Positions 16,147 to 33,185 of a stretch of 64,000 nucleotides of DNA are shown here, piece after piece; position 1 is the first letter of the stretch, and each line of letters begins with the position of its first letter. Source of the stretch: Lentzea tibetensis (lineage in GTDB: Bacteria > Actinomycetota > Actinomycetes > Mycobacteriales > Pseudonocardiaceae); assembly GCF_007845675.1 (NCBI RefSeq), contig NZ_VOBR01000002.1:124001-188000 (forward strand). Direction: 5' to 3'. A program made the translations under genes and the position numbers. The notes beneath the pieces were generated by a model. The model was not told the origin of the DNA. It made no database searches and saw only the letters and a list, made by a program, of their open reading frames with translations.

Positions 16147-16455
16147 ATGAGGTACACGCTCGTTCTCGCCGCACTGCTGCTCGTCGGGTGCTCCGCCTCC
16201 GCCGATCCGGGTCCCCGGTTCGACGACGAGGGGCAGGCGGAGCTCACCTGCATGAAGCACCAGCCGAACGCGCCGGGTGACCAGTACCTGAAGGAGGAGA
16301 ACTGGGACACCGACATGACGTTGCCGCTGCTGCGTTACTACACGACGAACGGCAAGAAGCCGTACTGCGACGGCCAGACCGCCTCTGAGGTGGACAAGCA
16401 GTGGCTGGACATCTACGTCAAGCTGGGCGCCGATGCTGGAAACATTCGTATATGA
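16147..16455 (+). CDS. Small lipoprotein, function unknown
   Basis: A 102-residue protein with a lipoprotein signal (LLLVGC, acylated Cys15). The mature part has two further Cys (ELTCMKH and PYCDG) that could form a disulfide. It starts 12 bp after the transporter stop with GGGGAGTGAAG as ribosome site, so it is the last gene of the DUF4331 operon. I recognise no named family. The same order of neighbours would be the best clue to function. Confidence 0.7.
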   Translation: MRYTLVLAALLLVGCSASADPGPRFDDEGQAELTCMKHQPNAPGDQYLKEENWDTDMTLPLLRYYTTNGKKPYCDGQTASEVDKQWLDIYVKLGADAGNIRI

Positions 16456-16599: not shown

Positions 16600-19500
16600 G
16601 TGAAGATGCTGTCCGACCGCGAGCTCGTGCTCGGTGTTGGTCCATTCGGCGCGCCGAACGCGGCCCTGGTGGTCGCGGTCGAGCGCGCCGGTGGACTGGG
16701 TGTGCTGGATCTCGGCCTCGACCCCGGCCGGGCGCGGGCCGGGGTCGACCACGTCGTCCGGCGGCTGGAACGCGCGTTCGGCGTGCGCATGGCGGCACCG
16801 TGTCCGGTGTCGCTCCCGGCCGCCGTCGACACCGTGCTGCTCGACCTCGAGCAGTACCGCCCGCAACGCTCTGAGCTGGGCGATCGACGCATCCTGGTCG
16901 AGGTGACCTCGATCGACGAGGCCGTCGACGCCCTCGCGTACGGCGCGCACGGGTTGATCGCCAAGGGCGCCGAGTCGGGTGGCCGGGTCGGGACGTCGTC
17001 GGCCTTCGTGTTGCTCCAGCAGCTGCTCGACGTGGTCGAGCTGCCCGTGTGGGTGGCCGGTGGCATCGGGCCCGACACCGCCGCCGCGGCGGTCGCGGGC
17101 GGTGCGGCGGGTGTGGTGCTCGACAGCCAGCTGGCGCTCGTGCGCGAGGCGCGAAAACATATTTCCCGTGAAATTGTCAACACTGTCACCGGGATGGACG
17201 GCGGTGAGACCGTCGTTGTCGGCGGTAAGCGGGTGCTTAGGCGAGACAATGCGGTGGCGATCGGACAAGAGGCTGCTTTCGCCGATTCACTGAAACGTTC
17301 GTTTGGGACCGCGGGCGGTGTTGTCCAGGCCATTCACGCCGCCATTCGGGGGAATCTGAAGATCGCCCGAACGCATCATTCCCTTCGTGTTGACGGCCCG
17401 TTGTGCCAGCGCGTCCCCGGCCTGCGGTACCCGATCGCACAGGGCCCGATGACCAGGGTCAGCGACCAGCCCGCGTTCGCCGCGGCGGTCGCGGAGGGTG
17501 GCGGGCTGCCGTTCCTCGCACTGGCCCTGATGGACGGTCAGCAGACGGCGAAGCTGCTCGACGACACCGCCCGGCTCCTCGGCGACCGGCCGTGGGGTGT
17601 GGGACTGCTCGGATTCGCGGACCCGGACGTGCAGGCCGCGCAGCTCGCCGCCGTGCACCGCACCAGGCCGCCGTACGCGATCGTCGCAGGTGGCACGCCA
17701 GCGCAGGCGAAAGCACTGGAGGACGCGGGAACCCAGGCGTTCCTGCACGTTCCGTCGCCCGCCCTGCTCGCGAGGTTCCTCGACGAGGGCGCGCGCAACT
17801 TCGTCTTCGAGGGCTCGGAGTGCGGCGGGCACATCGGTCCCCGGTCGAGCTTCACGTTGTGGCAGCAGCAGATCGACGTGCTGCGCGGCCGCGCGAAGGA
17901 CGTGGGCGTCCTGTTCGCCGGCGGCATCCACGACGAGCGCTCGGCGGCGATGGTGTCCGCGCTCAGCGCGCCGCTGGCCGCCGAGGGCGCCGCGATCGGC
18001 GTGCTCATGGGCACCGCGTACCTGTTCACCGAGGAGGCGGTGCGGCTCGGTGCGATCCAGCCGGTGTTCCAGGAGGTCGCGCTGGAGTGCGCGGACACCG
18101 CGCTGCTGGAGACCTCGCCCGGTCACAGCGTCCGGTGCGCCCGAACGTCCTATGTGGACACGTTCGAGACCGCACGCGCGGAGCTCGCGGACCTGCCGCG
18201 CCAGGAGAGCTGGGAACGGCTGGAGAAGCTGAACCTGGGCAGGCTGCGCATCGCCAGCCGCGGTCTGGTCCGCACCGGGGACGGTCTGGAGGCGGTCTCC
18301 GAGGAGACCCAGCGCGCGGACGGCATGTTCATGATCGGGCAGGTCGCGACGATGCGGTCGACACTCACCGACATCGCGACGCTGCACCGCGAGGTGACCA
18401 GCGGCGAGCTGCTGGAAGCCCGCTGCGCGCTGTTCGACGAGGACGTGCCCGCCGCAGAGCCGCTGGACGTCGCGATCATCGGGATGGCCGCGGTCATGCC
18501 CGGTGCGCGGGACGTCGCCGAGTACTGGTCGGGCGTGCTCAACGGCACCGACGCGGTCACCGAGGTGCCGCCGGACCGGTGGGACCCGGACCGCTACGGC
18601 AGCCCGTTCCGCTGGGGCGGTTTCCTGCCGCGCATCCCGTTCGACCCGCTGGCGTACGGCATCCCGCCCGCCTCGCTGACCTCGATCGAGCCGGCCCAGC
18701 TGCTGGCGCTGGAGGTGTCCGCGCAGGCACTCGCGGACGCCGGCTACCGGACGCGGGTGTTCGATCGGGCGCGCACCTCGGTGATCTTCGGCGCGGAGGC
18801 GGGCGCGGACCTGGCGAACGCCTACACGGTCCGCACCGCGCTGCCCGCGCTGTACGCGACACCACCCGAGGCGCTGAAGGAGTTCCTGCCCGCGCTCACC
18901 GAGGACTCGTTCCCCGGCGTGCTGGGCAACGTGATCGCCGGCCGCATCGCGAACCGGCTCGACCTCGGCGGCGCCAACTACACCGTTGACGCGGCGTGCG
19001 CGTCGTCGCTCGCCGCGCTGGACGTCGCGTGCAAGGAGCTGGTCGGCGGCACCAGCGACATGGTGCTGTGCGGCGCGGTCGACCTGCACAACAGCGCGCA
19101 CGACTACGAGATGTTCGCGTCCGTGCACGCGCTCTCGCCGTCCGGCCGGTGCGCCACCTTCGACTCGGCCGCCGACGGCATCACGCTCGGCGAGGGCGTC
19201 GCGTGCGTCGTGCTGAAGCGGCTGGCCGACGCCGAACGCGACGGCGACCGGATCTACGCGGTGATCAAGGGCATCGGCGCGTCCAGCGACGGCAAGTCGC
19301 TCGGACTGACGGCGCCGCGCGCGGACGGTCAGCGTCGCGCGCTCGACCGCGCCTACTCCTCGGCCGGACTGCTGATCACCGCCGTCGGCCTGGTCGAGGC
19401 GCACGGCACCGGCACGGTCGTGGGTGACCGAACCGAGCTGGCCGCGCTCACCGACGTGTTCACCGAGGCCGGTGCTGGCGCGGGCAGCTGCACGATCGGC

Positions 19501-22500
19501 TCGGTGAAGTCGCAGATCGGGCACACGAAGTGCGCGGCGGGCATGGCCGGACTGATCAAGGCCGCACTGTCGGTCCACAGTGGAGTGAAACCGGGCACGC
19601 TGCACGTCGAGGAGCCCAACGCGTTCTGGGACGCGGAGACCAGCCCGTTCACGTTCGGCGCGCGCACCTGGTCCGCGCCCGCGGGCGAACGGGTCGCCGG
19701 GGTGAGCGCGTTCGGCTTCGGCGGCACCAACTTCCACACCGTCCTGACCGGGTACGACGGCGCGGACGAGCCCGCTCACGGCCTCGCCGAGTGGCCCGCC
19801 GAGCTGTTCCTCTTCCGGGGCGACGATCGCGCGGCGGCACAACGCGCCGCCGCGGAGATCGCCCGCCTGGCCGCCGACGTGCGCACGCCCCTGCGCGCGT
19901 TGGCGGCCGCCTCGAGTGAGATCCCCTCAGCCGAATTCAGCGGGCCCGGCCGGCCTCGGGCGGATGCCGAACCGGGCCCGCTGGGTTCACCACCCGTGCG
20001 CGCGACGGCTGTCGTCGCGTCACGCGAAGAGCTGCTGAAGGCACTGGAGGACATCGCCGCCTGGCGGCCGTCGGACAAGGTCCGGCTGCGCGACGAGGCC
20101 GGCGAGGCGCCGCAGGTCGCGTTCCTCTACCCCGGCCAGGGCAGTCAGCGACCGGGCATGCTCTTCGACCTGTTCACCGCGTTCCCCCGGATGCAGGCCG
20201 CGCTGCGGCTGGCGGACGGCCGGTACGAGCACGTCATGTTCCCGCCCGCCGCGCTCACCCCGGCCGACGCCGAGCGCCAGCGCGCCGCGATCACCGACAC
20301 GCGGATGGCGCAGCCGACGCTCGGCATCGCCGGACTCGCCTGCACCCGGCTGCTGGCCGGCCTCGGCGTGCGGCCGGACATGGCCGGCGGCCACAGCTAC
20401 GGCGAACTGGTCGCGCTCGCGGCGGCCGGAGTGCTGGCACCGCAACAACTGCTCGAGCTCAGCGCCGCGCGCGCCGAGGCGATCGTCGGTGCCGTCGGCG
20501 ACGAGCCCGGCACGATGGCGGCGGTGTCGGCGACCCTGGATGAGGTCGAGCCGCTGCTGACCGGTGATGTCGTGGTGGCCAACCACAACTCGCCGAAGCA
20601 GGTCGTGATCTCCGGGCCGAGCGCCGCGGTCGAGGCCGCGATGGCCGAGCTGGTCGCCGCGGGCCTGTCCGTGCGGCGGATCCCCGTCGCGGCCGCGTTC
20701 CACAGCCCGCTCATGGCCGGTGCGCGCGAGCGGTTCGCGGACGTGCTCGCCACCCACGAGCTCGGCGAACCGAGCATCCCCGTCTGGTCCAATGTGGACG
20801 CGAAGCCGCACGCGGACGTCCGGCACGGGCTGGCCGAACAGCTGGCCGGGCGGGTGCGGTTCGTCGAGCAGGTCGAGTCGATGTACGCCGCTGGTGCGCG
20901 GGTGTTCGTCGAGGCCGGGCCCGGTGGCGTGCTGACGTCGTTCGTGCGCGCGACGCTGGGCGACCGGCCGCACACGGCCGTGCGGATCGACGACCGCGGC
21001 GTCGCCACGTTCCTCGACGCGCTGGCCCAGCTGGCGATCGCCGGTGTGCCGGTGGACGAGACCCCGCTCTTCGACGGACGCGCCGAGCCTGCGGTCGGCG
21101 TCCGGCCGAGCCCGAACTGGTACGTGGATGGAGGACTCGTGCGCGATGCCAACGGCGACGCACTGCCGGGCGGGCTGCGGCCGGCCACCGAGGCGCCCAC
21201 GCTGACCACCGGTGGCAACGCCAGCCGGGACTCCGTGGTGGAGAAGTTCCTCGACGGCATGCGGGACGCGGTCAGCGCGCAGCGCGACGTCCTGCTCAGC
21301 TATCTCGGCGGCGCCGTAACGGCGACGGCGCCGCCCGCCCCACCGTCACCTCGGCCAGCCGCGGCCGAGGTGACGGCGCCCGTGCCCGAGCCGGTCACCG
21401 AGGACATCGGCGCGATCGTGCTGCGGACCATCAGCGCCCGCACCGGTTACCCGCCCGAGATGCTCGAACCCGGACTCGACCTGGAAGCCGACCTGTCCGT
21501 CGACTCGATCAAGCGCACCGAGATCATCGGTGAGCTGGCCGCGGTGCTCGGCGTGAGCGGCGCGTCGGTCGACGAGCTGGCTCGCATCAAGACCATCGAG
21601 GGCATCGTCGGCTGGTTCGGCGCCACGCCGGCACCTGCCGGCCGGTTGGTCCGGCTCGTGCCCGAGGTCGTGGCGTGCGAGCCGGTCGAGCCCGCCGAGC
21701 TGGGCGACCGGACCGTGCTGATCATCGACGACAACGGCATCGGGCTCGAGCTCGCCGACCTCGTCGAGCGGCACGGCGGCACACCTCGCACCGAGCCGGC
21801 GTTCCCCGCTGATCTGTCCGGTGTGGACACCGTGGTGTGCCTCGGTGCCCGGCTGCCGCAGAGCTTCGACGACCTGAGGGCGTGCCTGCTCGGCGGAGTC
21901 AACGTGGTCGTCGTGACGACCGGCGGCGGCACGTTCGGCTTCGGTGAGACGCCGGACGAGCTGCCCGCCGACATCGGGCTGCACGGGTTCGTGCGCACCG
22001 CCGCACTCGAGTACCCGGACCTCGTGGTCCGCGCGGTCGACGTGAACCCCAAGGAGAGCCACCGGGTCATCGCGACCGCGTTGCTCGCCGAGTTGTGCAC
22101 GACCGACGGCCCGGTGGTCGTCGGGCACGCGGGCGGCAGGCGGCACACCATCTCGCTGCGTCCCGCCGACCTGGCGGACGCCAGGCTCGAGCTCGACGCG
22201 GACGCCGTCGTGCTGCTGACCGGCGGCGCCAAGGGCATCACGGCGCTGGCCGCGATCGCACTGGCCGAGTCGTCCGGCTGTCACATCGAGCTGATCGGCC
22301 GCACCGCCACGCCCACCGGACTCGAAGACCCGCGCACGGCGGCGGCTTCGGACGAGGCCGGCGTGCGGCGAGCGTTGATCGAGATGGGCGCGAAGGACCG
22401 GGACGCCGTGGCAGCCGACGCGCGGCGAATCCTCGCCGAGCGCGAGGTGCGGCAGAACCTGGACCGGCTCAGGGCATCCGCGTCCTCGGTGCGCTACCAC

Positions 22501-23007
22501 GAATGCGACGTCACGGACGCCGACGCCGTCGCCGCCGTGATCGCCGACATCACCGCGCGGTTCGGCAGGCTCGACGGTGTCGTCCACGGCGCCGGGGTGC
22601 TCGACGACCGGTTCATCGCGGACAAGACCGCCGAGTCGTTCGCCCGCGTCTACGACACGAAGGTCCTGGGTGCTCGCGCGCTGGCCGGAGCGTTGCCGTC
22701 GTTGAGCTTCCTGGTGCTGTTCGGCAGCGTCAGCGGGGTCGACGGCAACCGCGGCCAGGCCGACTACTCGGCCGCCAACGACGCGCTCGACCGGATGGCG
22801 CGGTTCTGGGCCACGCAGACAGATGCGCGGGTGGTGAGCGTCGACTGGGGTCCGTGGGCCGGTGCGGGCATGGTGTCGCCCGAGCTGGCGGCGGAGTACG
22901 CGCGGCGCGGTGTGCCGCTGATCGACCCGGAGGCCGGTGTCGCAGCGCTGCTGAAGGAGATCGCGGCAGGTCAGGACGTTCAGGTGATCTGCCGATGGGA
23001 GGAGTAG
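16600..23007 (+). CDS. PUFA-synthase-like type I PKS: NPD-NPD-KS-AT-ACP-KR
   Basis: A 2135-residue iterative-type polyketide/fatty acid synthase. Two nitronate-monooxygenase-like TIM-barrel modules come first (about 5-230 and 270-530; GSECGGHIGP at ~404), the flavin enoyl-reductase type of PUFA synthases. KS begins at ~623 with DAACASS (Cys800), EAHGTGT (His935) and a later GHTKCAAG. AT spans about 1170-1480 with PGQGSQ and GHSYGE (Ser1266). One ACP follows at about 1600-1680 with SVDSIKR (Ser1636), then a KR from ~1870 with TGGAKGI and YSAANDALDR. It needs the next gene for dehydration. GTG start with GAGGA upstream. Unlike classic PUFA synthases it has one ACP rather than a tandem array. 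It probably makes a long reduced acyl or polyene chain. Confidence 0.9.
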   Translation: MKMLSDRELVLGVGPFGAPNAALVVAVERAGGLGVLDLGLDPGRARAGVDHVVRRLERAFGVRMAAPCPVSLPAAVDTVLLDLEQYRPQRSELGDRRILVEVTSIDEAVDALAYGAHGLIAKGAESGGRVGTSSAFVLLQQLLDVVELPVWVAGGIGPDTAAAAVAGGAAGVVLDSQLALVREARKHISREIVNTVTGMDGGETVVVGGKRVLRRDNAVAIGQEAAFADSLKRSFGTAGGVVQAIHAAIRGNLKIARTHHSLRVDGPLCQRVPGLRYPIAQGPMTRVSDQPAFAAAVAEGGGLPFLALALMDGQQTAKLLDDTARLLGDRPWGVGLLGFADPDVQAAQLAAVHRTRPPYAIVAGGTPAQAKALEDAGTQAFLHVPSPALLARFLDEGARNFVFEGSECGGHIGPRSSFTLWQQQIDVLRGRAKDVGVLFAGGIHDERSAAMVSALSAPLAAEGAAIGVLMGTAYLFTEEAVRLGAIQPVFQEVALECADTALLETSPGHSVRCARTSYVDTFETARAELADLPRQESWERLEKLNLGRLRIASRGLVRTGDGLEAVSEETQRADGMFMIGQVATMRSTLTDIATLHREVTSGELLEARCALFDEDVPAAEPLDVAIIGMAAVMPGARDVAEYWSGVLNGTDAVTEVPPDRWDPDRYGSPFRWGGFLPRIPFDPLAYGIPPASLTSIEPAQLLALEVSAQALADAGYRTRVFDRARTSVIFGAEAGADLANAYTVRTALPALYATPPEALKEFLPALTEDSFPGVLGNVIAGRIANRLDLGGANYTVDAACASSLAALDVACKELVGGTSDMVLCGAVDLHNSAHDYEMFASVHALSPSGRCATFDSAADGITLGEGVACVVLKRLADAERDGDRIYAVIKGIGASSDGKSLGLTAPRADGQRRALDRAYSSAGLLITAVGLVEAHGTGTVVGDRTELAALTDVFTEAGAGAGSCTIGSVKSQIGHTKCAAGMAGLIKAALSVHSGVKPGTLHVEEPNAFWDAETSPFTFGARTWSAPAGERVAGVSAFGFGGTNFHTVLTGYDGADEPAHGLAEWPAELFLFRGDDRAAAQRAAAEIARLAADVRTPLRALAAASSEIPSAEFSGPGRPRADAEPGPLGSPPVRATAVVASREELLKALEDIAAWRPSDKVRLRDEAGEAPQVAFLYPGQGSQRPGMLFDLFTAFPRMQAALRLADGRYEHVMFPPAALTPADAERQRAAITDTRMAQPTLGIAGLACTRLLAGLGVRPDMAGGHSYGELVALAAAGVLAPQQLLELSAARAEAIVGAVGDEPGTMAAVSATLDEVEPLLTGDVVVANHNSPKQVVISGPSAAVEAAMAELVAAGLSVRRIPVAAAFHSPLMAGARERFADVLATHELGEPSIPVWSNVDAKPHADVRHGLAEQLAGRVRFVEQVESMYAAGARVFVEAGPGGVLTSFVRATLGDRPHTAVRIDDRGVATFLDALAQLAIAGVPVDETPLFDGRAEPAVGVRPSPNWYVDGGLVRDANGDALPGGLRPATEAPTLTTGGNASRDSVVEKFLDGMRDAVSAQRDVLLSYLGGAVTATAPPAPPSPRPAAAEVTAPVPEPVTEDIGAIVLRTISARTGYPPEMLEPGLDLEADLSVDSIKRTEIIGELAAVLGVSGASVDELARIKTIEGIVGWFGATPAPAGRLVRLVPEVVACEPVEPAELGDRTVLIIDDNGIGLELADLVERHGGTPRTEPAFPADLSGVDTVVCLGARLPQSFDDLRACLLGGVNVVVVTTGGGTFGFGETPDELPADIGLHGFVRTAALEYPDLVVRAVDVNPKESHRVIATALLAELCTTDGPVVVGHAGGRRHTISLRPADLADARLELDADAVVLLTGGAKGITALAAIALAESSGCHIELIGRTATPTGLEDPRTAAASDEAGVRRALIEMGAKDRDAVAADARRILAEREVRQNLDRLRASASSVRYHECDVTDADAVAAVIADITARFGRLDGVVHGAGVLDDRFIADKTAESFARVYDTKVLGARALAGALPSLSFLVLFGSVSGVDGNRGQADYSAANDALDRMARFWATQTDARVVSVDWGPWAGAGMVSPELAAEYARRGVPLIDPEAGVAALLKEIAAGQDVQVICRWEE

Positions 23008-26000
23008 ACGTCGCGATCGTCGGGATCGGCGCGGTCTTCCCCGGCGCTCCCGACGCGCCCGCGTTCTGGCGCAACATCGCGGGCGGTGTCGACGCGGTGA
23101 CGGCCGTGCCGGACGGCCGGTGGGGCACCACCTCCGGTGACCGCTTCTACTGCCGGCGCGGTGGTTTCGTCGACGAGCTGGCGACGTTCGACCCGATGGC
23201 GTTCGGCGTCATGCCGTCCACCGTGGACGTCGCGGAGCCGGACCAGCTGCTGGCGCTGAGCACCGCGGCCGAGGCGATCGCCGACGCCGGGGGAGAGGCC
23301 GCGCTGCCGGACCGCTCGCGCATCGGCGTGGTCGTCGGCCGCGGCGGCTACCTGACGCCCGGCTGCGCGCGGCTCGACCAACGCGTGGCGCTGGCCGACC
23401 AGGTCGTGACCGTGCTGCGCGACCTGTTCCCCGGCATGGCCGACCTCGACGCGGTGCGCGAGGCCGTGCAGGACAAGCTCGGGCCGGACCAGCCGGAGGC
23501 GTCGATCGGGCTGGTGCCCAACCTCGCCGCGTCCCGCATCGCCAACCGCTTCGACCTGCGCGGCACCGCCTACACCGTCGACGCGGCGTGTGCGTCGGGG
23601 CTCGTCGCGGTCGAGCACGCGGTGCGCGAGCTGGCGTCCGGCCGGGCCGACGCGATGCTCGCCGGTGCCGTCCACCTGTGCCACCACCCGACGTTGTGGA
23701 GCGTGTTCACGCAGCTCCGCGCATTGAGCCCGACCGAGCGGATCCGGCCGTTCGACCGCGACGCCGACGGCACGCTGCTGTCCGAGGGCGTCGGGATGGT
23801 GCTGCTGAAACGCCTGTCGGACACCGCCGACGACCGCGTGTACGCGGTGATCCGCGGGGTCGGGACGGCGAGCGACGGCCGTGCCACCAGCATGATGACG
23901 CCCAACCCGGACGGCCAGCTGCTCGCCGTGCACCGGGCGTGGCGCGAGGCCGGACTCGACCCGCTGGTCGACTCACCGGGCCTGGTCGAGGCGCACGGCA
24001 CCGCGACCCCCGCCGGTGACGCGGCCGAGCTCGGCACGATGATCAACGCGTTCGGCCGCTCGGGCGCGCCGATCGGCATCGGCACGGTCAAGTCCATGAT
24101 CGGCCACGCGATGCCGGCCGCCGGGATGGCCGGGCTGATCAAGGCCGCTTTGGCGTTGCACCACGGCATCTTGCCGCCCACCCTGCACATCGACGAACCG
24201 CACGAGGCCATCGCGGGCACCCGCTTCGAACCGGTGTGGGAGGCGCGCGAGTGGGACGGGCCGCGACGCGCGGTCGTCAACGCGTTCGGCTTCGGCGGCA
24301 TCAACGCGCACGTCGTGCTCGAAGCACCCCGGCACGCGGCCGCGATCTCCGTGCGCACACCGGTCATCACCTACTCCGCCGACTCGCTCGAGCAGCTCGC
24401 CGCGGACCTGCGCGCCGACCGGCAGTCGCAGGCGGACCGCGACTTCCGGCTCGTCATCGGCAACCCGGACGCCCGCAAGCGGGATCTCGCCGCACGAGTG
24501 GTCGCCCGCGGACGGCAGTGGACCGGGCGGCACGACATCTGGTTCGCGCCCGCGCCGATGATCACGACACCGGACCAGGTCGCGTTCCTGTTCCCCGGCT
24601 TCGAGCACCGCGGCACCGGTGAGCTCGCGGAGTCCGGTGACGTGCTCGACCACGCGTTGTCGTTGCTGCGCAACGGGAGGCAGGGCGCGCGCGAGCTGAC
24701 CGCGCTCGGCGTCACGCCGGGTGCGCTGGCGGGGCACAGCATGGGGGAGTGGACGGCGATGGTCGTCGCCGGGATCTACCCGACGATCGACGAGTTCGTG
24801 CGCGCCGTCGACCCGGCTTCGCTCGCGCTGGCGGACATCTCGTACGCCGCGCTCGGCTGCTCCGCGCTGGTCGCCCAGTCCGCGATGGACGGGGTGGCCG
24901 GTGTGTCGGTGAGCCACGACAACTGCCCGCACCAGTCGGTGATCTGCGGTCCCGCCGATCAGCTGGCGGTGGTGATCGACCGGTTGCACACGCGGGGTGT
25001 GCTCGCGCAGCTGATGCCGTTCCGCACCGGGTTCCACACGCCAGCGCTCGCGCCGCACCTGGACGGGGTGCGGGCGACGATGGACGCGCTGCCCGTGCAC
25101 GCGCCGCGCATCCCGGTCTGGTCGGCGACCTCGCTCGAACCGATGCCCGACGATCCGGGCGAGATCCGCTCGCTCGTGCTGCGGCACCTCGTGGAGCCGG
25201 TGCGGTTCCGGCCGTTGACCCAACGGTTGCACGAAGCGGGTTTCCGGGCGTTCGTGCAGGTCGGATCGGGCAGTCTGACCGGGTTCGTCGCGGACACCCT
25301 CGGCGAGCGTCCGCACCTGGCGGTGTCCGGGAGCGCGGACGTGATCGCGGCCGCGTTGTGGGCGTTCGGGCTGAAGCGCGGGACGCGGCGGAGGCTCTCG
25401 CTGGGCGTGCCCTCGGTGCGGCTCGACCCCATCGGTACCGCGCCCGTCGCCTCCGAGCTGCCGGACTCGCCGGTGAGCGCGCAGGTGAACGCGCTGCTGA
25501 GCCACACGAACGCGGTGGCGCGGGAGATCGCGTCGGCGCTCGTGCCGCCCGCGCCGCAGGAGATGGGGTTCACCCGCGAGTTCTCGTTGCACACCATGCC
25601 GGAGCTCGTCGACCACTCGGTGTTCCCGCAGCCGGGCGGCTGGCCGGACCTCGCGGACGGGTTCCCGATCGTGCCCGCGACCGGGCTGCTGGAGGTCTTC
25701 GCCGACGCGGCGATGCGGCTGACCGGCTCGGCGGTGCACGGGTTCGCGGACGTGCGCGCGAAGCGGTGGCTCGCGGTGCTGCCCGGCGTGGACGTGCGGA
25801 TCGCCGCGCGGGTCGACGGGCCCGGCCGGGTGCACGTGCGGGTCGGCGACTACGCCGAAGGCATCGTGCTGACCGCGCCGGTGTCGCGGGACGTGGTGCG
25901 CGAACCGTTGCGCGGTGTCCGGCCCGCGCCGGTGAACGCCACCGAGCTGTACGTGGACAACTGGATGTTCCACGGCCCCGCGTTCGCCGGAGTCACCAAG

Positions 26001-26678
26001 ATCTCCTCGTTGGCGGACAACGGGATCGCCGGTGTGCTCCAGCCGTTGCCCGCGCCCGGTGCGTTGCTGGACAGCGCCGGTCAGCTGATCGGGCACTGGA
26101 TGCAGGTGTCGCACACCGTCGACCAGACCGTGCTGCCGACCGGGATCGAGGAGATCTCGCTGCACGGCCCCGTTCCGACCGCTCCTGTGGCGTGCACCGC
26201 GTGGATCCGCACGGTGACGCCCACGGCGATGACGGCCGACGCCGACCTGACCGTGGACGGCGTGCTGTGGTGCCGCATCACCGGCTGGACCACGCGCCGG
26301 TTCACCACCGACGACCGGATCTGGGCGGTGAAGCTGCGTCCCGGCACCGAGATGCTGTCCGTCGCTTCGGCGGACGGGGTGCTGGTGCGCGAGAACTGGG
26401 TGGACAGCGCTACCCGCGACCTGATCATGCGCCGCTACCTCAACTCCGCTGAGCGTGCCCTGTACGAGGGCATGGACGTGCCCGCTCAGCGGAGCTGGCT
26501 GCTGCGCGCGATCGCCGCGAAGGACGCGGTGCGTTCGCACCTGTGGAGCCGGGGTGCGGGACCGATCTACCCCGCGGAGCTCACCGTCGCGGACGGCCGC
26601 GTGCGCGGCGCGTTCGCGATCCCGCCCGTGACCGTCACCGACGGGCCGGGACACGCACACGCACGAGTCGAAGGGTGA
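22995..26678 (+). CDS. Second PKS subunit: KS-AT-DH with PPTase-like C-terminus
   Basis: A 1227-residue protein. KS covers about 5-435 with DAACASG (Cys199), EAHGTAT and GHAMPAAG, so it looks catalytically competent. The AT-like region (about 530-800) has GHSMGEW and FHTP, but PGFEHRG replaces PGQGxQ, so transfer activity is doubtful. A double-hotdog DH region runs from about 860 to 1130, with His873 in DHSVFP, MFHGPAF and LLDSAGQ. The last ~80 residues (LNSAERALYEGM ... WLLRAIAAKDAVRSHLW) resemble the C-terminal part of Sfp-type phosphopantetheinyl transferases, as at the end of enediyne PKSs, but the upstream Asp motif is not seen. The ATG overlaps the first PKS gene by 13 bp, so the two are coupled. 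Confidence 0.88.
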   Translation: MGGVDVAIVGIGAVFPGAPDAPAFWRNIAGGVDAVTAVPDGRWGTTSGDRFYCRRGGFVDELATFDPMAFGVMPSTVDVAEPDQLLALSTAAEAIADAGGEAALPDRSRIGVVVGRGGYLTPGCARLDQRVALADQVVTVLRDLFPGMADLDAVREAVQDKLGPDQPEASIGLVPNLAASRIANRFDLRGTAYTVDAACASGLVAVEHAVRELASGRADAMLAGAVHLCHHPTLWSVFTQLRALSPTERIRPFDRDADGTLLSEGVGMVLLKRLSDTADDRVYAVIRGVGTASDGRATSMMTPNPDGQLLAVHRAWREAGLDPLVDSPGLVEAHGTATPAGDAAELGTMINAFGRSGAPIGIGTVKSMIGHAMPAAGMAGLIKAALALHHGILPPTLHIDEPHEAIAGTRFEPVWEAREWDGPRRAVVNAFGFGGINAHVVLEAPRHAAAISVRTPVITYSADSLEQLAADLRADRQSQADRDFRLVIGNPDARKRDLAARVVARGRQWTGRHDIWFAPAPMITTPDQVAFLFPGFEHRGTGELAESGDVLDHALSLLRNGRQGARELTALGVTPGALAGHSMGEWTAMVVAGIYPTIDEFVRAVDPASLALADISYAALGCSALVAQSAMDGVAGVSVSHDNCPHQSVICGPADQLAVVIDRLHTRGVLAQLMPFRTGFHTPALAPHLDGVRATMDALPVHAPRIPVWSATSLEPMPDDPGEIRSLVLRHLVEPVRFRPLTQRLHEAGFRAFVQVGSGSLTGFVADTLGERPHLAVSGSADVIAAALWAFGLKRGTRRRLSLGVPSVRLDPIGTAPVASELPDSPVSAQVNALLSHTNAVAREIASALVPPAPQEMGFTREFSLHTMPELVDHSVFPQPGGWPDLADGFPIVPATGLLEVFADAAMRLTGSAVHGFADVRAKRWLAVLPGVDVRIAARVDGPGRVHVRVGDYAEGIVLTAPVSRDVVREPLRGVRPAPVNATELYVDNWMFHGPAFAGVTKISSLADNGIAGVLQPLPAPGALLDSAGQLIGHWMQVSHTVDQTVLPTGIEEISLHGPVPTAPVACTAWIRTVTPTAMTADADLTVDGVLWCRITGWTTRRFTTDDRIWAVKLRPGTEMLSVASADGVLVRENWVDSATRDLIMRRYLNSAERALYEGMDVPAQRSWLLRAIAAKDAVRSHLWSRGAGPIYPAELTVADGRVRGAFAIPPVTVTDGPGHAHARVEG

Positions 26679-26685
26679 AACACCG

Positions 26686-26955
26686 ATGAGCGACGTCCTG
26701 ACGCGGCTCGCGCAGATCATCTCCGAGGTGGTCGGGCCGGACTTCCTGCTGGACGTGGAGATCACCAGGGAGACGACGTTCAGCGACGACCTCGGCCTGG
26801 AGAGCATCGAGTTCGTCGCACTGGCCGACAAGCTCCGCGCGCACTACGACGTCGACCTCGTCGGGTTCCTCGCGGACATGGACATCGACGAGATCATGGC
26901 GATGTCGGTCGGCCGGTTGGCCGACCACATCGAGATGGCAGCCGCCCGTGGCTGA
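26686..26955 (+). CDS. Stand-alone acyl carrier protein
   Basis: An 89-residue carrier protein. The phosphopantetheine site is Ser40 in DLGLESIEF, within a four-helix ACP pattern and an acidic composition. It lies 7 bp after the second PKS gene and overlaps the hydrolase gene by 8 bp. It supplements the single ACP embedded in the first PKS subunit and may carry the starter, the finished chain or an intermediate for hydrolysis or transfer (inference). Confidence 0.9.
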   Translation: MSDVLTRLAQIISEVVGPDFLLDVEITRETTFSDDLGLESIEFVALADKLRAHYDVDLVGFLADMDIDEIMAMSVGRLADHIEMAAARG

Positions 26956-27718
26956 GGTCGAAGCCCGCGGCCTGCGGTTCCACGTGCAGACGCTCGGTCC
27001 AGACGACGGGCCGACGCTCGTTTTCGTGCACGGTCTCGTGATGGACAACCTGTCCAGCTTCTACTACACGCTCGCCGCCCCGCTCGCGGCGAAGGGCGTG
27101 CGCACCATCCTGTTCGACCTGCGCGGCCACGGGCTGTCGGCGCGTCCGTCGTCCGGCTACACGCCGCACGACAGCGCGCTGGACCTGTTGGCGATCCTGG
27201 ACGCGCTCGGCATCCGCACGCCGGTCTACCTGCTGGGCAACAGCTACGGCGGTGTCGTCGCGATGCGCACCGCGCTGGCCGACCCGTACCGGGTGGCCGG
27301 TGTGGTGGTCGTGGAGGCGGCGTGCGGCGGCATCGTCGGTGACCTGTGGTTCGAGGACATGGTCAACACCCTGACCGTCGCGGCGCTGGGGCTGGAGTTC
27401 GACCGCACCCAGGACCAGCTGAAGGCGCTGGGCCAGCGCAAGATCGCCCGGCTGGCCGGCAACGCGTCGGAGTTGCTCAACGGCACCACGTTGATCGACG
27501 ACCTCGGCTCCGGTCCGCACCTGGCCGATCTGGCCGCCGTGACGTGCCCGGTGCTCGGGGTGTTCGGGGCGGAGTCGACGTTGATCGGTGCCGCCGCCGA
27601 GCTGGCGGAGCGGATTCCCGACTGCCGGCTGCACGTGGTGTCCGGCCTGGGGCACACGGTGTTGCGCGAGGCCACGGGCGAGCTGCTGGACACGGTGCTC
27701 GATTGGCTCCGCGTATGA
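26948..27718 (+). CDS. Alpha/beta hydrolase
   Basis: A 256-residue alpha/beta-hydrolase. The oxyanion HG is at 28-29, the nucleophile elbow GNSYGG places Ser99, and a C-terminal GLGHTVLRE supplies the His. Asp is expected in the strand near VFGAESTL, where the acid may be Glu. Its place between the ACP and the glycosyltransferase suggests a thioesterase-like role, releasing or transferring the PKS product. A GTG start overlaps the ACP stop by 8 bp; the stop overlaps the next ATG (ATGA). Confidence 0.85.
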   Translation: MAEVEARGLRFHVQTLGPDDGPTLVFVHGLVMDNLSSFYYTLAAPLAAKGVRTILFDLRGHGLSARPSSGYTPHDSALDLLAILDALGIRTPVYLLGNSYGGVVAMRTALADPYRVAGVVVVEAACGGIVGDLWFEDMVNTLTVAALGLEFDRTQDQLKALGQRKIARLAGNASELLNGTTLIDDLGSGPHLADLAAVTCPVLGVFGAESTLIGAAAELAERIPDCRLHVVSGLGHTVLREATGELLDTVLDWLRV

Positions 27719-28845
27719 GCCGGTACCTGTTCGTCGTGCCGCCGCTGACCGGGCACATCAACCCGACGGTGTCCGTCGGTGCCGAGCTCATGTCGCGCGG
27801 GCACGCGGTGGCGTGGGTCGGGCATCCGGGGACGTTGGCTCCGTTGCTTCCCGCTGGTGCCCTGGTCTTCCCGGCGTTGGACGACGAGGTCGAGCGGCGG
27901 ATCCAGGACGCTCGGGTGCAGTGGCTCGGGCTGCGCGGGATGGCGGTGCTGAAGTTCTTCTGGGAGGAGTTCCTGATTCCTCTCGGGCACGCGATGGTGC
28001 CGGGTGTCACCGAGGCTGTTTCGGCGTTCTCGCCGGACGTGGTCGTCGCCGACCAGCAGGCGCTGGCCGGTCCGCTGGTGGCGTCGCGGCTCGGGATTCC
28101 CTGGGTGACTTCGGCGAGCACGCCCGCGGAGCTGGTGCGGCCGCTGCAGACTCTGCCGAAGGTGGAGTCGTGGGTGGTCGAGCTGTTGTCCTCCTTCGCG
28201 GGCTCGGACATCCGCTTCTCGCCGTTGCTCGTGCTGGTCTTCACGTCGCCTTCGCTGGTGCCGGGGGCTTTTCCGCCGCACTACGTGTTCACCGGCCCGG
28301 CGCTGGCCGGCCGTCCAGGTGGGTCTTTCCCGTGGGAGTGGCTGACTTCCGGCCGGCGCCGGGTGCTGGTGTCGTTGGGGACGTTGAACGGCGCCGCCGG
28401 GGAGCGGTTCTTCGGCGAGGTCGTCTCGGCGGTGGCTTCGCTGGACGTTCAGGTGGTGATGGTGGCGCCGCCGGGTGCCGTTTCCGCGCCGCCCAACGTG
28501 CTGGTCGCTTCCTCGGTGCCGCAGCTGGACCTGATGCCGCACCTCGACGCGGTGGTGTCGCACGGCGGCCACAACACCGTGTGCGAGGCACTGGCGCACG
28601 GGTTGCCGCTCGTGGTGGCGCCGATCCGCGACGACCAGCCGATCATCGCGGACCAGGTGGTGGCCGCGGGCGCGGGCATCCGGCTCCGGTACGCGCGGGT
28701 GCGTGCCGACGAGATCCGTACCGCGTTGCTCGACGTGCTCGACAGTCCTTCCTACGCCGCGGCGGCACGCCGGGTGCGGGACTCCTTCCAGGCCGCGGGC
28801 GGTGCTGTGACGGCGGCCGATCACCTCGAGGCGGTGGTGGCGTGA
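27715..28845 (+). CDS. GT1 family (UGT/MGT-like) glycosyltransferase
   Basis: A 376-residue GT-B glycosyltransferase. The N-terminal FVVPPLTGHINPTVSVG and C-terminal donor-site signature (VPQLDLMPHLDAVVSHGGHN ... LPLVVAPIRDDQP) are those of macrolide/UGT-type enzymes that move a sugar from an NDP-sugar to a small hydrophobic acceptor. It likely glycosylates the lipid or polyketide made by the upstream PKS (inference from position). ATG overlaps the hydrolase stop, and its own stop overlaps the GTG of the methyltransferase by 4 bp. Confidence 0.88.
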   Translation: MSRYLFVVPPLTGHINPTVSVGAELMSRGHAVAWVGHPGTLAPLLPAGALVFPALDDEVERRIQDARVQWLGLRGMAVLKFFWEEFLIPLGHAMVPGVTEAVSAFSPDVVVADQQALAGPLVASRLGIPWVTSASTPAELVRPLQTLPKVESWVVELLSSFAGSDIRFSPLLVLVFTSPSLVPGAFPPHYVFTGPALAGRPGGSFPWEWLTSGRRRVLVSLGTLNGAAGERFFGEVVSAVASLDVQVVMVAPPGAVSAPPNVLVASSVPQLDLMPHLDAVVSHGGHNTVCEALAHGLPLVVAPIRDDQPIIADQVVAAGAGIRLRYARVRADEIRTALLDVLDSPSYAAAARRVRDSFQAAGGAVTAADHLEAVVA

Positions 28846-30713
28846 TCCTCGGTGCGCTGGTCCTACTTTTCGTCGTGCTGGACGCTCTCCGGCTCCGCTC
28901 CCGCGCCGCGGCGCTGCGCGTGCTCCCCACGGGCGTGCTTCCGCAGGCGTCCCCGCCAGGGGGTCCCCCTGTTTCTATTCTCCCAGGCAGCAGCCGCACT
29001 TCCGGGGCCTCAACGCAATCTGTGGACAACTCCGGCGCTGTGGACAACCCGGTCCTGCTGATCGCCACGGGCGTCGAAGCCAACAGCTCCTGGGACTCCG
29101 GTGACACCGACGTACTCGACCTCATCCCGCCCGGCCTGCCCACCACGGCGGCGCTCGACCTGCTGAACGCCTTCGACCCCAAGAAGTACGCGACCGACAA
29201 CTGGGCGAGAGGCGTGAGCGCGGGCCAGGCGATCCTGTGCCGCCCGGACCTGGCGACAACCCCGCCGGATCCCGCGGACCCGACCGAGTTCACCGTGTTC
29301 GTCCGCGCCGCCAAGGAGCACGTCCACCTCAAGGTCGACATCGCCGTGGCCCCCGGTCTCCAGGCGGCACAACCGAACCCGGCGCACCGCGCGGCGAAGC
29401 TCCGTCAGCACGGCAAGCGTCCGACGTTGTGGGTGGCGGGCTCGGTGATCGGCTACCTGGTCGTCACCACGGCCGTGGTGACCGCGTGGCCGTGGGGCCT
29501 GCTGGCCGTGGCCGCGTACTGCGCCCACCCGGCACTGGCACTGGCCGGAACCCCGTTGCGCCCCAAGGACCTCCTGGCCGCAACTCTGTTGCGCCCCCTG
29601 CGCGCACCACAACTGTGGTACCAGACCCTGAAGTCGAAGTGGCGTTCCACGCAGGAGCACAACCAGACGGCCCGGCTGGAAGCCGCAACTCCCTGGTACG
29701 AGGCGCAGATCGAGCAGGGCATCAGCAGGTTCTTCGAGAAGAGCCGCGACTCCTGTCCGGCCTGCGGCTCCGCGGACCTGCGCCTCCAGGTGCGCAGCGT
29801 GGACCTGATCCAGCGCAAGCCGGGCGAGTTCACGATGGACCGCTGCGTCCGCTGCGCCCACGTCTGGCAGAACCCGAGGCTCAGCGAGGAAGGCCTCGGC
29901 TTCTACTACCGCGACTTCTACGACGGCCTCGGCGAAGGCGCGGCCGACGCGGTGTTCTCCATCAAGAACGACCCGTACTACGGCCGCGCGAGAATGGTGC
30001 AGCCGTTCACGACGCCGCAGAACTGGCTGGACGTCGGCTCCGGCCACGCCCACTTCTGCTTGGGAGCCAAGGAGGTTCTCCCGACCACCACGTTCGACGG
30101 CCTCGATCAAGGCGCCGCCATCGAAGAGGCGGCGACCAAGGGCCGGATCGAGAAGGCGTACCGGGGCACGTTCAAGGACTTCGCGCCCGAGCTGCGCGGC
30201 CGGTACGACGTCATCAGCATGCACCACTACCTGGAACACGTGCGCGACCCGTGGGAAGAGCTCGACATCGCCGCGGACGTGCTGCCCGAAGGCGGCTACC
30301 TGCTCATCGAGCTGCCCGACCCGGAGTGGCGGCTGGGCTGGAAGTTCGGCCGGTACTGGATGCCCTGGTTCCAGCCGCAGCACCAGCACATGATGCCGAT
30401 CGAGAACCTCAAGCACGAGCTCGCCGACCGGCATCTCACGACCGTCGCCGAGGAACGCTCGAAAGCCCACATGCAGAACGACTTCATGCTCGCCGCGCTG
30501 CTGTTCCTCGGCGCCAAGGCACCGCGCACGCCCGCGCCGTGGCGGCCGGAGAAGCCGAAGTACAAGACACTGCGCAGCGCGGCGGTGTGGACGCTCGGCA
30601 TCCCGCTCTTCCTCGTCGCGGCCGCGCTCGACCAGACGCTCAACCGGGCGCTCGCGCACCGCAACGACCGGGGCAACGCCTACCGCGTGCTCGCGCGCAA
30701 GGAGGCCGAGTGA
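28842..30713 (+). CDS. Membrane-attached zinc-ribbon SAM methyltransferase
   Basis: A 623-residue fusion-like protein. An N-terminal helix (LGALVLLFVVLDALRL), a ~170-residue soluble part and two hydrophobic helices (about 198-240) precede a CPACGS ... CVRCAH zinc ribbon (about 305-345). A class I methyltransferase domain follows (motif I WLDVGSGHAHFC near 395; LLIELPDP near 487), and a last hydrophobic helix lies near residue 590. The ribbon plus Rossmann fold matches Methyltransf_23-type enzymes that act on sugars or lipids. The N-terminal half is unfamiliar. Coupled by GTGA overlaps on both sides, it probably modifies the glycosylated PKS product at the membrane. Confidence 0.78.
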   Translation: MILGALVLLFVVLDALRLRSRAAALRVLPTGVLPQASPPGGPPVSILPGSSRTSGASTQSVDNSGAVDNPVLLIATGVEANSSWDSGDTDVLDLIPPGLPTTAALDLLNAFDPKKYATDNWARGVSAGQAILCRPDLATTPPDPADPTEFTVFVRAAKEHVHLKVDIAVAPGLQAAQPNPAHRAAKLRQHGKRPTLWVAGSVIGYLVVTTAVVTAWPWGLLAVAAYCAHPALALAGTPLRPKDLLAATLLRPLRAPQLWYQTLKSKWRSTQEHNQTARLEAATPWYEAQIEQGISRFFEKSRDSCPACGSADLRLQVRSVDLIQRKPGEFTMDRCVRCAHVWQNPRLSEEGLGFYYRDFYDGLGEGAADAVFSIKNDPYYGRARMVQPFTTPQNWLDVGSGHAHFCLGAKEVLPTTTFDGLDQGAAIEEAATKGRIEKAYRGTFKDFAPELRGRYDVISMHHYLEHVRDPWEELDIAADVLPEGGYLLIELPDPEWRLGWKFGRYWMPWFQPQHQHMMPIENLKHELADRHLTTVAEERSKAHMQNDFMLAALLFLGAKAPRTPAPWRPEKPKYKTLRSAAVWTLGIPLFLVAAALDQTLNRALAHRNDRGNAYRVLARKEAE

Positions 30714-31534
30714 TCGACATCGCCGACCGGCCCGACGTCGCACCCGAGCTGCGGCTCGTGCCGCACGCGTTCCGGCGCGTGTTCGGCCAGCCCGCGCAAG
30801 GGGTCTGGTACGCGCCCGGCGTGCTGAGCCTCATGGGTGGCGCGCTCACGGTGTGCGCGAAGTGGGGCGCGATCGTCGCCGGCATCAAGCGCGACGACGG
30901 TGTGCTGGAGCTGGCGTCGATCAACCGGCCCGCCGAGCGCGTCTCGTTGCCGACGGACGACGTGCCCGAGTGGGCCGCGCCGATCGCGCAGATCCCCGGC
31001 TGGTCCGGTGGTGCGACGTTGCTGTGCAGCGTGGACCTGCCGCGGGGCAGTGGGCTCAGGGCCGGTGACGCGCTGGCCTGCGCGGCCGCGATGGCGTTGA
31101 GCGACCTGCACGGCGCGGCGCTGTCGATCCACGGCGCGTACGCAGGAAAACCGGGCCACGCCGTGGACCGGGAGGGACGGGTGCGGCCGATCGACCTGGC
31201 CGGGCAACGACTTCTCGTCATCGACACGCGCATCCGCCGCGACCGGCCGCTGGAGCCGCGGCGGGCGTGTGTGGACGGTTCGCTCGGCGACGCCATGACG
31301 GCGTACCACTTCGGACAGCGGCCGGACCCCGAGCAGGACGCCGTCGTGTCCGCCGCGCTGGCCGCCGGCGCGCACGGCGCGAGCATGCTCGTCGACGAAC
31401 CCGGACGTCCGGTCGTGGCGCTGGTCGACACCGACCGGCTGGCCACGGTGCGCGCCACTATCAGCGCGGCCTACTCGCCGACTCCGCGCTATCTCACGGT
31501 GCTGCCGTCGGGCGGTGCCTACCGCGTGACGTGA
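30710..31534 (+). CDS. Degenerate galactokinase-family (GHMP) protein
   Basis: A 274-residue protein that aligns with galactokinase in order: FRRVFGQPAQGVWYAPGVLSLMGG (core GVWYAPGVLSLMGG) for the sugar-binding signature, VDLPRGSGLRAGDALACAAA for the ATP-binding loop, and GAHGASMLVDEPGRPVVALV for the third GHMP motif. Each is altered: the GEHTDY of real galactokinases reads GGALTV, the SSSAAL loop is RAGDAL, and the glycine-rich motif 3 is lost. It is ~100 residues shorter than the ~380 of active enzymes. A kinase role is therefore unlikely; a sugar-sensing or structural role for the adjoining glycosyltransferase is a guess. GTG start in the methyltransferase stop, AAGGAG site upstream. Confidence 0.72.
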   Translation: MIDIADRPDVAPELRLVPHAFRRVFGQPAQGVWYAPGVLSLMGGALTVCAKWGAIVAGIKRDDGVLELASINRPAERVSLPTDDVPEWAAPIAQIPGWSGGATLLCSVDLPRGSGLRAGDALACAAAMALSDLHGAALSIHGAYAGKPGHAVDREGRVRPIDLAGQRLLVIDTRIRRDRPLEPRRACVDGSLGDAMTAYHFGQRPDPEQDAVVSAALAAGAHGASMLVDEPGRPVVALVDTDRLATVRATISAAYSPTPRYLTVLPSGGAYRVT

Positions 31535-31546
31535 CAGGATCGGGCG

Positions 31547-31897
31547 ATGCGGATCGACCAGGACTCCGACGTTCCACCGTACGAGCAAGTGCGTCTGCAC
31601 TTCGCGCAGGCCATCGCGGCCCGTGAGCTGCCGGTCGGCGCGAAGCTCCCCACGGTGCGCGCACTGGCCGCTGACCTGGGCCTCGCCGTCAACACCGTCG
31701 CCCGTGCCTACCGCGAACTGGAGGAGGCGGGGCTCGTCGAGACGAGGGGCCGCGCCGGGACCGTCGTCAGCGCCGCCGGTGACCGCGGCCGCGAACGGGT
31801 CGTGCGCGCCGCCCGCGCTTATGCCGCCACCGCGACCGAGGTCGGGCTCACCGCGGACGAGGCGCTGGAGATCATCCGGGCCGCCCTGATGGTCTGA
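31547..31897 (+). CDS. GntR family regulator (YtrA-type)
   Basis: A 116-residue regulator: a winged helix-turn-helix (PPYEQVRLHFAQAIAARELPVGAKLPTVRALAADLGLA; core LPTVRALAADLGLAVNTVARAYRELE) and a short helical tail, the layout of the YtrA subfamily. These usually repress the operon that contains them. It lies 12 bp after the galactokinase-like gene, at the end of the PKS operon, and is its most likely local regulator (inference). Confidence 0.88.
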   Translation: MRIDQDSDVPPYEQVRLHFAQAIAARELPVGAKLPTVRALAADLGLAVNTVARAYRELEEAGLVETRGRAGTVVSAAGDRGRERVVRAARAYAATATEVGLTADEALEIIRAALMV

Positions 31898-32018: not shown

Positions 32019-33185
32019 ATGGGTCGGTTCGTCCGCGACGCGTTGCGGCTCAGCGACGAGCAGCAGCAGTTCGTCGAGCTCGCGAGGGACTTCGCCGCGC
32101 GCGAGATCCGGCCGCGCGGCCGCGCCGTCGACGAGGCGGACACCGAGTCGCCGCTGGACGTGTGGGCGAAGGCGAGCAAACTGGGCCTGACCAGCTTCAT
32201 GCTCCCCGAGTGGCTCGGCGGTGGCGGCGTCACCGACGTGCTCACCCAGGTCCTGGTCCAGGAGGAGCTGTGCCACGGCGACATCGGCATCGGCAACCTG
32301 GTCACGTCCAACGGCTTCTTCAGCGCGCCGCTGGAGCACCTCGGCACCCCTGAGCAGCAGGAACGCTGGCTCGCGCCGCTCGCGGGAGACAACCCGCCGC
32401 TGACGGCCGTCGCGGTCACCGAGCCCGGCAGCGGCAGCGACGCGGCGAGCATCCAGACCTCCGCGGTCCGCGAGGGCGACGAGTACGTCCTCAACGGCCA
32501 GAAGACGTGGATCTCCAACGCCCCCTACGCCGACTACTTCGTGATCTTCGCGACGGTCGACCCGAAGCTGCGCGCCAAGGGCGTCACGGCGTTCGTCGTC
32601 GAGAAGGACACCCCCGGACTGAAGGTCGGCCCGCCGTTCCAGAAGATGGGCCAGCGCGCGATCGTCAACGCCGAGGTCTTCCTCGACAACGTGCGCGTGC
32701 CCGTCGACCAGCGCCTCGGCGACGAGGGCAAGGGCTTCTCCGGTCTCATGCGGACGTTCGACGCGTCCCGCATCCTCATCGGCGCCGCGACCACCGGTCT
32801 CGCCCGCGCCGCGCTCGACTACGCGACCGACTACGCGAAGCAGCGCGAGCAGTTCGGCGTGCCGATCATCCAGCACCAGGCCGTGGCGTTCCGGCTCGCG
32901 GACATGGCGACCCGCGTCGACACCTCCCACCTGCTCACCATCCGCGCCGCACAGCTGTTCGACGCCGGGCTCGCGGTGGCGCAGGAGTCCGCGATGGCCA
33001 AGCTCGTGGGCTCCGAGAACGCCATGTGGTGCACGCACGCCGCGGTGCAGACGCTCGGCGGCTACGGCTACTCGCGCGAGTACCCGGTGGAGCGCTGGAT
33101 GCGCGACGCCAAGCTCGAGGAGATCGAGGAGGGCACCTCGGACATCCAGCGTGTGATCATCTCGCGTGGCTTGGACCGAGGATGA
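32019..33185 (+). CDS. Acyl-CoA dehydrogenase
   Basis: A 388-residue FAD-dependent acyl-CoA dehydrogenase. The flavin/substrate signatures VTEPGSGSDAASIQT (about residues 131-145) and the C-terminal QTLGGYGYSREYPVERWMRDAK are intact, with the EGTSDIQR motif in the usual place. The enzyme inserts the alpha-beta double bond of an acyl-CoA; the chain type is not readable. ATG with GGGAG upstream. It overlaps the next gene by 4 bp (ATGA), forming a three-gene operon. The upstream dyad links it to the permease/amino-acid dehydrogenase pair, so a branched-chain or other amino-acid-derived acyl-CoA is a reasonable guess. Confidence 0.9.
   Translation: MGRFVRDALRLSDEQQQFVELARDFAAREIRPRGRAVDEADTESPLDVWAKASKLGLTSFMLPEWLGGGGVTDVLTQVLVQEELCHGDIGIGNLVTSNGFFSAPLEHLGTPEQQERWLAPLAGDNPPLTAVAVTEPGSGSDAASIQTSAVREGDEYVLNGQKTWISNAPYADYFVIFATVDPKLRAKGVTAFVVEKDTPGLKVGPPFQKMGQRAIVNAEVFLDNVRVPVDQRLGDEGKGFSGLMRTFDASRILIGAATTGLARAALDYATDYAKQREQFGVPIIQHQAVAFRLADMATRVDTSHLLTIRAAQLFDAGLAVAQESAMAKLVGSENAMWCTHAAVQTLGGYGYSREYPVERWMRDAKLEEIEEGTSDIQRVIISRGLDRG

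Follow-up and report, generated by a model that had tools for sequence, protein, structure and literature searches.

The window analyzed here, i.e., the whole stretch of 64,000 nucleotides of Lentzea tibetensis DNA, contains a conserved operon of seven genes (16600-31534) encoding two large proteins related to polyunsaturated fatty acid (PUFA) synthases, PKS1 and PKS2, together with an acyl carrier protein (ACP), an alpha/beta hydrolase, a glycosyltransferase (GT), a methyltransferase and a galactokinase relative devoid of kinase motifs. According to the best reading of this gene set, to which we assign a probability of roughly 60%, it specifies an iterative PUFA-synthase-like "secondary lipid" synthase along with a set of tailoring enzymes, and the product would most likely be a cell-associated glycolipid.

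Organization and distribution of the operon

The features of the operon and its downstream neighbor are as follows:

16600-23007, + strand: PKS1 (NMO1-NMO2-KS-AT-ACP-KR), 2135 amino acids, GTG start; Pfam domains, with the expected KS, AT, ACP and KR residues present
16600-17409 (bounds approximate), + strand: NMO1, FabK-like repeat with GGR replacing GGH; region profile against FabK, E 4.9e-22
17422-18348, + strand: NMO2, FabK/PfaD-type flavin enoyl reductase domain with GGH; Pfam NMO, amino acids 275-583
21418-21615, + strand: embedded ACP of PKS1, one copy in the window; Pfam PP-binding and motif counts
22995-26678, + strand: PKS2 (KS-AT-DH and phosphopantetheinyl transferase remnant), 1227 amino acids; Pfam and conserved residues
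26403-26675 (start approximate), + strand: truncated phosphopantetheinyl transferase (PPTase) domain at the end of PKS2; aligned with the start of the region ending in Pfam ACPS in L054 and L084
26686-26955, + strand: discrete ACP; Pfam PP-binding
26948-27718, + strand: alpha/beta hydrolase, candidate release enzyme; Pfam Abhydrolase_6, E 2.8e-21
27715-28845, + strand: GT1-type (EryCIII/macrolide-GT-like) glycosyltransferase; Pfam EryCIII-like_C, E 2e-20; NCBIfam MGT, 173.7 bits, below the cut-off of 260
28842-30713, + strand: membrane-domain and class I methyltransferase fusion, 623 amino acids; Pfam Methyltransf_23 (amino acids 383-535), hydrophobic segments, structural model and Foldseek
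30710-31534, + strand: galactokinase-derived protein without kinase motifs; profile against galactokinase 6tep, structural model and Foldseek
31547-31897, + strand: GntR-type regulator (Pfam GntR), a neighbor outside the conserved unit

The eight same-strand open reading frames which the sequence-only reading had grouped into one unit do overlap by 13, 8, 4, 4 and 4 bp or leave gaps of 7 and 12 bp, but the last of them, encoding the GntR-type regulator, falls outside: it was matched at one of the 80 loci compared (L031), that is, at one of the 22 Lentzea loci, and the unit therefore ends at 31534. The operon of seven genes is real and conserved. The start of the methyltransferase gene was placed at the alternative GTG codon at 28842, rather than at position 29022 chosen by the gene caller, because a hydrophobic N-terminal helix is common to the relatives.

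The loci compared, designated by L numbers, correspond to the best 80 of 249 PKS2 relatives and include 22 loci from Lentzea; the alignments comprise PKS1 from 60 of the 80 loci and from the window (61 rows, each of at least 1900 amino acids) and PKS2 from 75 of the 80 plus the window (76 rows). PKS2 was matched in all 25 Lentzea genomes searched (that of the window and 24 others) and in 31/61 genomes overall. On a strict count, the order PKS1-PKS2-ACP-hydrolase-GT on a single strand is present at 67/80 loci, and the 13 others consist of nine Actinomadura loci without the hydrolase, one locus with parts on both strands and three loci starting or ending inside the set. The tail genes are conserved with the PKS genes, in line with their earlier assignment to one unit: all seven genes occur in order at 22/22 Lentzea loci, an arrangement also seen in Kibdelosporangium, in Streptomyces and in some of the Actinomadura. 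In tblastn searches on the 80 loci, the GT was matched at 79, the ACP at 74, the hydrolase at 70, the methyltransferase at 57 and the galactokinase-like gene at 51, the last two figures having to be read with the fact that some of these loci end at contig ends. Compared with the GT gene, those for the methyltransferase and the galactokinase-like protein occur less consistently and are frequent add-ons to a five-gene core.

A profile of the NMO1-NMO2 region matched 103 of 249 genomes of the family at E 1e-120, in 19/46 genera, some of the matches spanning the second repeat only, and 10 of 396 genomes of the phylum at E 1e-150, including that of the window. PKS1, PKS2, the ACP and the hydrolase were found in all 16 regions taken from the family genomes, and the GT in 13 of them; in the 9 regions from the phylum search, one of which was poorly called, the GT was found in 6. 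Since the GT was not called in 3/16 and 3/9 of these further regions, glycosylation may not be universal.

The median dN/dS of Lentzea pairs ranged from 0.06 to 0.30 across the seven genes; these are rough values, obtained by treating pairs of equal length as aligned, with 13 pairs in the case of PKS1 and single pairs reaching 3.8. The window genes located at 11545-16455 and 32019-36807, which flank the operon, are common to locus L031 and were not found by tblastn at the other Lentzea operon loci, and the operon seems to sit at another genomic place in other Lentzea. The search for an empty operon site in the genome of the window, in which the genes flanking the operon in L032 served as the query, gave matches with at most 45% identity, located on other contigs, or none.

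Some loci show particular features. L123 (G024:C28) is an additional cassette copy that has diverged (PKS2 49% identical), while the first copy in the same genome is the nearest to the window by PKS2. The operons at L046, L040 and L061, the records of which are titled Rhodococcus rhodnii, Nocardia sp. and Actinosynnema sp., respectively, group with Kibdelosporangium or Lentzea: these records may be mistitled, or the operons may have moved. At L138 (2422-12090), the PKS1 frame continues for 3222 amino acids, there is no separate PKS2, and the galactokinase-like gene directly follows the GT gene; judging from its length, this frame is probably a PKS1-PKS2 fusion, as expected of partners.

Domains and conserved residues of the two synthase proteins

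The PUFA-synthase logic proposed earlier holds at the family level, PfaA (TIGR02813) being the best NCBIfam match of both PKS1 (841.2 bits) and PKS2 (423.5 bits), although neither protein reaches the cut-off of 1010.1. Pfam retrieved the domain order previously described in PKS1, with two NMO stretches ahead of KS, AT, ACP and KR, but the two reductase repeats are not equivalent. The His of the GGH motif, which is catalytic in FabK, is kept in NMO2 in 59/61 PKS1 rows, whereas in NMO1 it is replaced by Arg in 56/61 rows. On these residues, the pair is therefore probably a single enzyme accompanied by an altered copy, and because the Arg is conserved and not lost at random, it is suggested that NMO1 has been kept in an altered role. 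The KS1 Cys and the ACP Ser are kept in 55/61 and 59/61 rows, respectively. The single embedded ACP, which had been regarded as a feature of the system, is found in the window, L031 and L042, but two tandem ACPs, an arrangement typical of PUFA synthases, are present in 20 of the 22 Lentzea rows (as counted from a motif pattern, checked by eye in five rows).

Five Actinomadura loci (L070, L092, L093, L108 and L110) have open PKS1 frames in which Gly replaces the KS1 Cys and the KR has lost its Tyr (5/61 rows). The AT1 Ser is replaced by Gly in four of them, as is the AT2 Ser in four; the KS2 Cys and the DH residues are kept, and the hydrolase is absent in four. On these residue states, the operon at the five loci is a reduced form resting on a first synthase predicted to be dead.

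The KS, AT and DH (one region) attributed to PKS2 were all recovered with Pfam, the remnant of a PPTase domain at the end of the protein having been missed in the sequence-only reading. The KS2 Cys, both KS2 His residues, the DH His and the DH Asp are present in 76/76 rows. No chain length factor (CLF), i.e., a KS-like domain without the Cys, was detected with Pfam in the two PKS proteins of the window, which contain no further KS.

The window PKS2 stops within a C-terminal domain that runs longer in its relatives: the GIDVE and WxxKEAxxK blocks of the PPTase are missing, and Pfam ACPS is not scored there, while it was detected in both the relatives tested (L054, E 2.3e-17; L084, E 1.7e-15). 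Based on motif patterns, both blocks are present in 18/76 PKS2 rows, including 7/7 from Streptomyces and 4/25 from Actinomadura, and the PPTase is not complete in any of the 22 Lentzea rows. In a tree calculated from 32 of the 76 PKS2 rows, the window groups with Lentzea and then with Umezawaea, as part of a clade of ten rows from Pseudonocardiaceae and two records bearing the titles Nocardia and Rhodococcus; the state of the PPTase changes at least five times in this tree, two long branches of which are unsafe. The genome of the window has one PF01648 match, located elsewhere than in the operon, and the corresponding protein is a candidate activator of the operon ACPs.

The tailoring genes

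The GT resembles the macrolide and self-immunity GT families of NCBIfam, with scores below both cut-offs, and the macrolide glycosyltransferases are its nearest curated relatives. At the mapped loci, the GT relative adjoins the hydrolase or the ACP gene. An extra alpha/beta hydrolase gene is located between the ACP and hydrolase genes at L054, L055, L062, L085, L104, L105 and L107 (identified with Pfam in the case of L054).

The membrane character of the methyltransferase, which had been noticed from the sequence, was borne out by the presence of four hydrophobic windows, two of which overlap, in addition to the Methyltransf_23 domain; the segments lie near amino acids 1-19, 195-224 and 579-597. 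The N-terminal 300 residues match no Pfam family, and the four PDB sequence matches lie on the other half. The best Foldseek matches of the model (pLDDT 85.0) are methyltransferases, some of them sugar C-methyltransferases, and include MtmC, KijD1 and TcaB9, these being matches reported for the model as a whole and not by aligned residues. The two halves also occur separately, the first alone at L067 and L074 and the second alone at L069, L076 and L147. A galactokinase-like gene is located nearby at 42/49 loci carrying the first half versus 3/18 loci without it, a count on related loci from which 26 loci were left out and in which the gene caller missed L046, L048, L051 and L061 (seen by tblastn); this co-occurrence is a lead only.

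Galactokinases carry the motifs GRVNLIGEH, GLSSSA, an MDQ/LDQ stretch and GGGFGG. The galactokinase-like protein of the operon has no Pfam match, but its profile matched galactokinase 6tep (E 4.2e-32), and human galactokinase was the best Foldseek match (E 1.7e-19) of its model (pLDDT 88.7), which makes it a galactokinase relative by both homology and fold. The alignment with 6tep puts the EHTDY and LDQ stretches in gaps, GGGFGG is replaced, and neither GR nor EH of the first motif occurs in any of the 14 aligned rows, in agreement with the dead galactokinase recognized in the sequence-only reading. The median dN/dS over 205 Lentzea pairs was 0.25 (a rough value, with single pairs up to 3.0), and we read the protein as one that has lost its activity but is apparently kept under purifying selection. 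Gal3 is a non-catalytic galactokinase relative; compared with galactokinase and Gal3-type relatives, the operon protein shares the fold and the profile but is shorter, lacks the kinase motifs and is linked to a lipid/polyketide operon. The slot of this gene is filled by an LCM-type methyltransferase gene at L069 (17447-18328) and L105 (11585-12472).

A more speculative proposal, which we consider doubtful, is that the operon makes a genus-wide envelope glycolipid of Lentzea, and that glycosylation or methylation at the membrane would need the dead galactokinase, which would act as an activator by binding sugar, the membrane domain or the GT and would thus be a new kind of helper. The dead P450s helping macrolide glycosyltransferases follow a comparable logic.

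Predicted product and relationships with known systems

From the gene content, order and conservation, the residue states, the homologies and the predicted folds, we infer the following chemical steps, as well as a membrane location of the product and a helper role. The operon encodes a full-reduction set (KR, DH and one ER) and two KS and two AT domains with catalytic residues. PKS1 and PKS2 would work as one complex, to which PKS1 would bring KS1, AT1, ACP, KR and the NMO2 enoyl reductase, and PKS2 the DH and a second active KS. Together, these domains would assemble a long and largely reduced acyl chain on the ACP, while NMO1 would probably contribute to folding, dimerization or flavin binding rather than to hydride transfer. 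The chain would then move to the discrete ACP and be freed by the alpha/beta hydrolase, and the GT1 enzyme would glycosylate it after release. In the branch of the window, the membrane-anchored methyltransferase would probably modify the glycoside, and the catalytically dead galactokinase might aid the glycosyltransferase or the membrane protein.

A glycolipid product is suggested by the best match to PfaA, the catalytic residues kept, the tandem ACPs of the Lentzea relatives, the frequency of the GT and hydrolase genes (79/80 and 70/80 loci), the occurrence of PKS2 in 25/25 Lentzea genomes, the probable fusion at L138 and the core plus methyltransferase gene borne by a Streptomyces plasmid with its own annotation. 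Against it stand the further regions in which the GT was not called, the nine Actinomadura loci without the hydrolase, the nearness of the GT to macrolide glycosyltransferases among curated families, the scores below the PfaA cut-off, and the fact that a Pfam scan of the operon proteins revealed no export or sugar-nucleotide gene in the unit. The mycobacterial phenolic glycolipid pathway also combines a chain made by type I PKSs with a GT1-type glycosyltransferase and a methyltransferase, but with other PKS classes: PKS1 scores 373 bits with Pks2 and 341 bits with Pks13, versus 841 with PfaA.

Given the likeness of the GT to the macrolide and self-immunity families, under their cut-offs, the product might alternatively be a diffusible, antibiotic-like glycosylated polyketide (a lactone or polyene glycoside), with the hydrolase acting as a thioesterase for cyclization or release and the GT possibly providing self-protection as well. 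We hold this to be possible but unlikely. The patchy distribution in the phylum would suit it, and so would an MFS transporter gene lying downstream at the Streptomyces locus L084 and the occurrence of the core and the methyltransferase gene on a Streptomyces plasmid typed as mobilizable, the own annotation of which lists a PKS, a KS-domain protein, an ACP, a hydrolase, a GT and a methyltransferase (plasmid matches from S. cattleyicolor and Azospirillum without annotation were left out). However, the presence of PKS2 in every Lentzea genome searched is more in keeping with a cell component than with an optional antibiotic, and the Pfam scan detected no transporter or resistance gene inside the unit. 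According to the accessible part of one report, no new peak was obtained from a Streptomyces region that had been cloned and bore the label T1PKS,hglE-KS (PMC7896053); this region may belong to another family than the operon, and failed expression says little either way.

It is improbable that the synthase supplies phospholipids with a free fatty acid, whether polyunsaturated or saturated, the downstream genes forming a separate pathway. This would account for the PfaA-like synthase, the NMO-type reductase and the tandem ACPs in relatives, but hardly for a GT relative almost always present and adjoining the hydrolase or ACP gene where mapped, or for a PKS2 with only one DH region and an invariant KS2 Cys in place of a PfaC-type chain length factor. 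A silent or decaying operon in Lentzea, which the incomplete PPTase and the lost galactokinase motifs might indicate, is very improbable in view of the low median dN/dS values, the PPTase-family match elsewhere in the genome and the eleven other checked residues, which are kept in 20/22 Lentzea rows (L035 and L095 have one gap each, L095 reaching a contig end). PKS1 and the DH-PPTase end of PKS2 recall the order of enediyne PKSs; this assignment was set aside on profile scores and gene content, PfaA giving the highest score and the unit showing no recognizable enediyne cassette gene. The phenolic-lipid (type P) assignment was also rejected: at the type P locus of Beijerinckia, the PKS is accompanied by two KAS III-like genes, described as type III PKS genes in the available text of PMC3098273, and there are none in the window unit.

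In the glycolipid synthase proposed here, the domains typical of secondary lipid synthases are all present (KS, ACP and KR with MAT, DH and NMO-type ER; Pfam and residue check). In the accessible sections of their catalog, Shulse and Allen (2011; PMC3098273) distinguished 20 types (A-T) of Pfa-like clusters, 14 of them without a product, and also admitted single-ACP clusters as secondary lipid synthases; their type M includes Actinosynnema mirum, Frankia, Renibacterium and S. avermitilis, and the operon may belong to type M. It shares with the Pfa systems a PfaA-like KS-AT-ACP-KR protein, a second KS protein with DH, an NMO-type ER, tandem ACPs in relatives and a PPTase fused in relatives. Unlike in Pfa synthases, the ER is duplicated and fused to the PfaA-like protein, an active KS2 with AT takes the place of the CLF, and a discrete ACP, a hydrolase and a GT are added. 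The heterocyst glycolipid (Hgl) synthases (type F) are likewise PUFA-like synthases making the lipid part of a glycolipid, but type F is described in the same text as lacking the DH domains of pfaC (PMC3098273), whereas PKS2 has a DH, the comparison being with the published description.

As far as their accessible text goes, one Lentzea survey lists hglE-KS for 15/692 clusters, with PUFA-type KS domains (PMC9120177), and a Lentzea network includes an hglE-KS class (PMC9973853); the label may refer to this operon. Among the other surveys listing hglE-KS, excerpts of one give 11% similarity to the hexacosalactone A cluster in another organism (PMC13238742). Three core genes of cluster kal28 of Kutzneria albida, which belongs to the same family, Pseudonocardiaceae, are said in the part available to resemble omega-3 PUFA synthases (PMC4210621), a likeness by description, in a text naming no tailoring genes or product. 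PKS-NRPS-PUFA hybrids are covered in the accessible part of El Arnouki Belhaji (2026; PMC13291983). As the earlier reading had anticipated, no characterized cluster or product with this gene set was found in the open-licence literature as far as its accessible text goes, including the Amycolatopsis survey PMC5984834. On the whole, the observations made from the sequence were partly confirmed and their interpretation partly supported.

The cataloguing of PUFA-like synthases from bacteria other than marine ones goes back to 2011, and the operon is an orphan example present in 25/25 Lentzea genomes, with its reductase region in 103/249 genomes of the family. At 15 kb with linked tailoring genes, it is small enough for deletion or expression. 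The dead galactokinase, which is conserved, and the altered reductase repeat offer testable examples of proteins that selection has retained despite a loss of activity. The identity of the product would give a function to a large orphan family which genome surveys may label hglE-KS or type I PKS.
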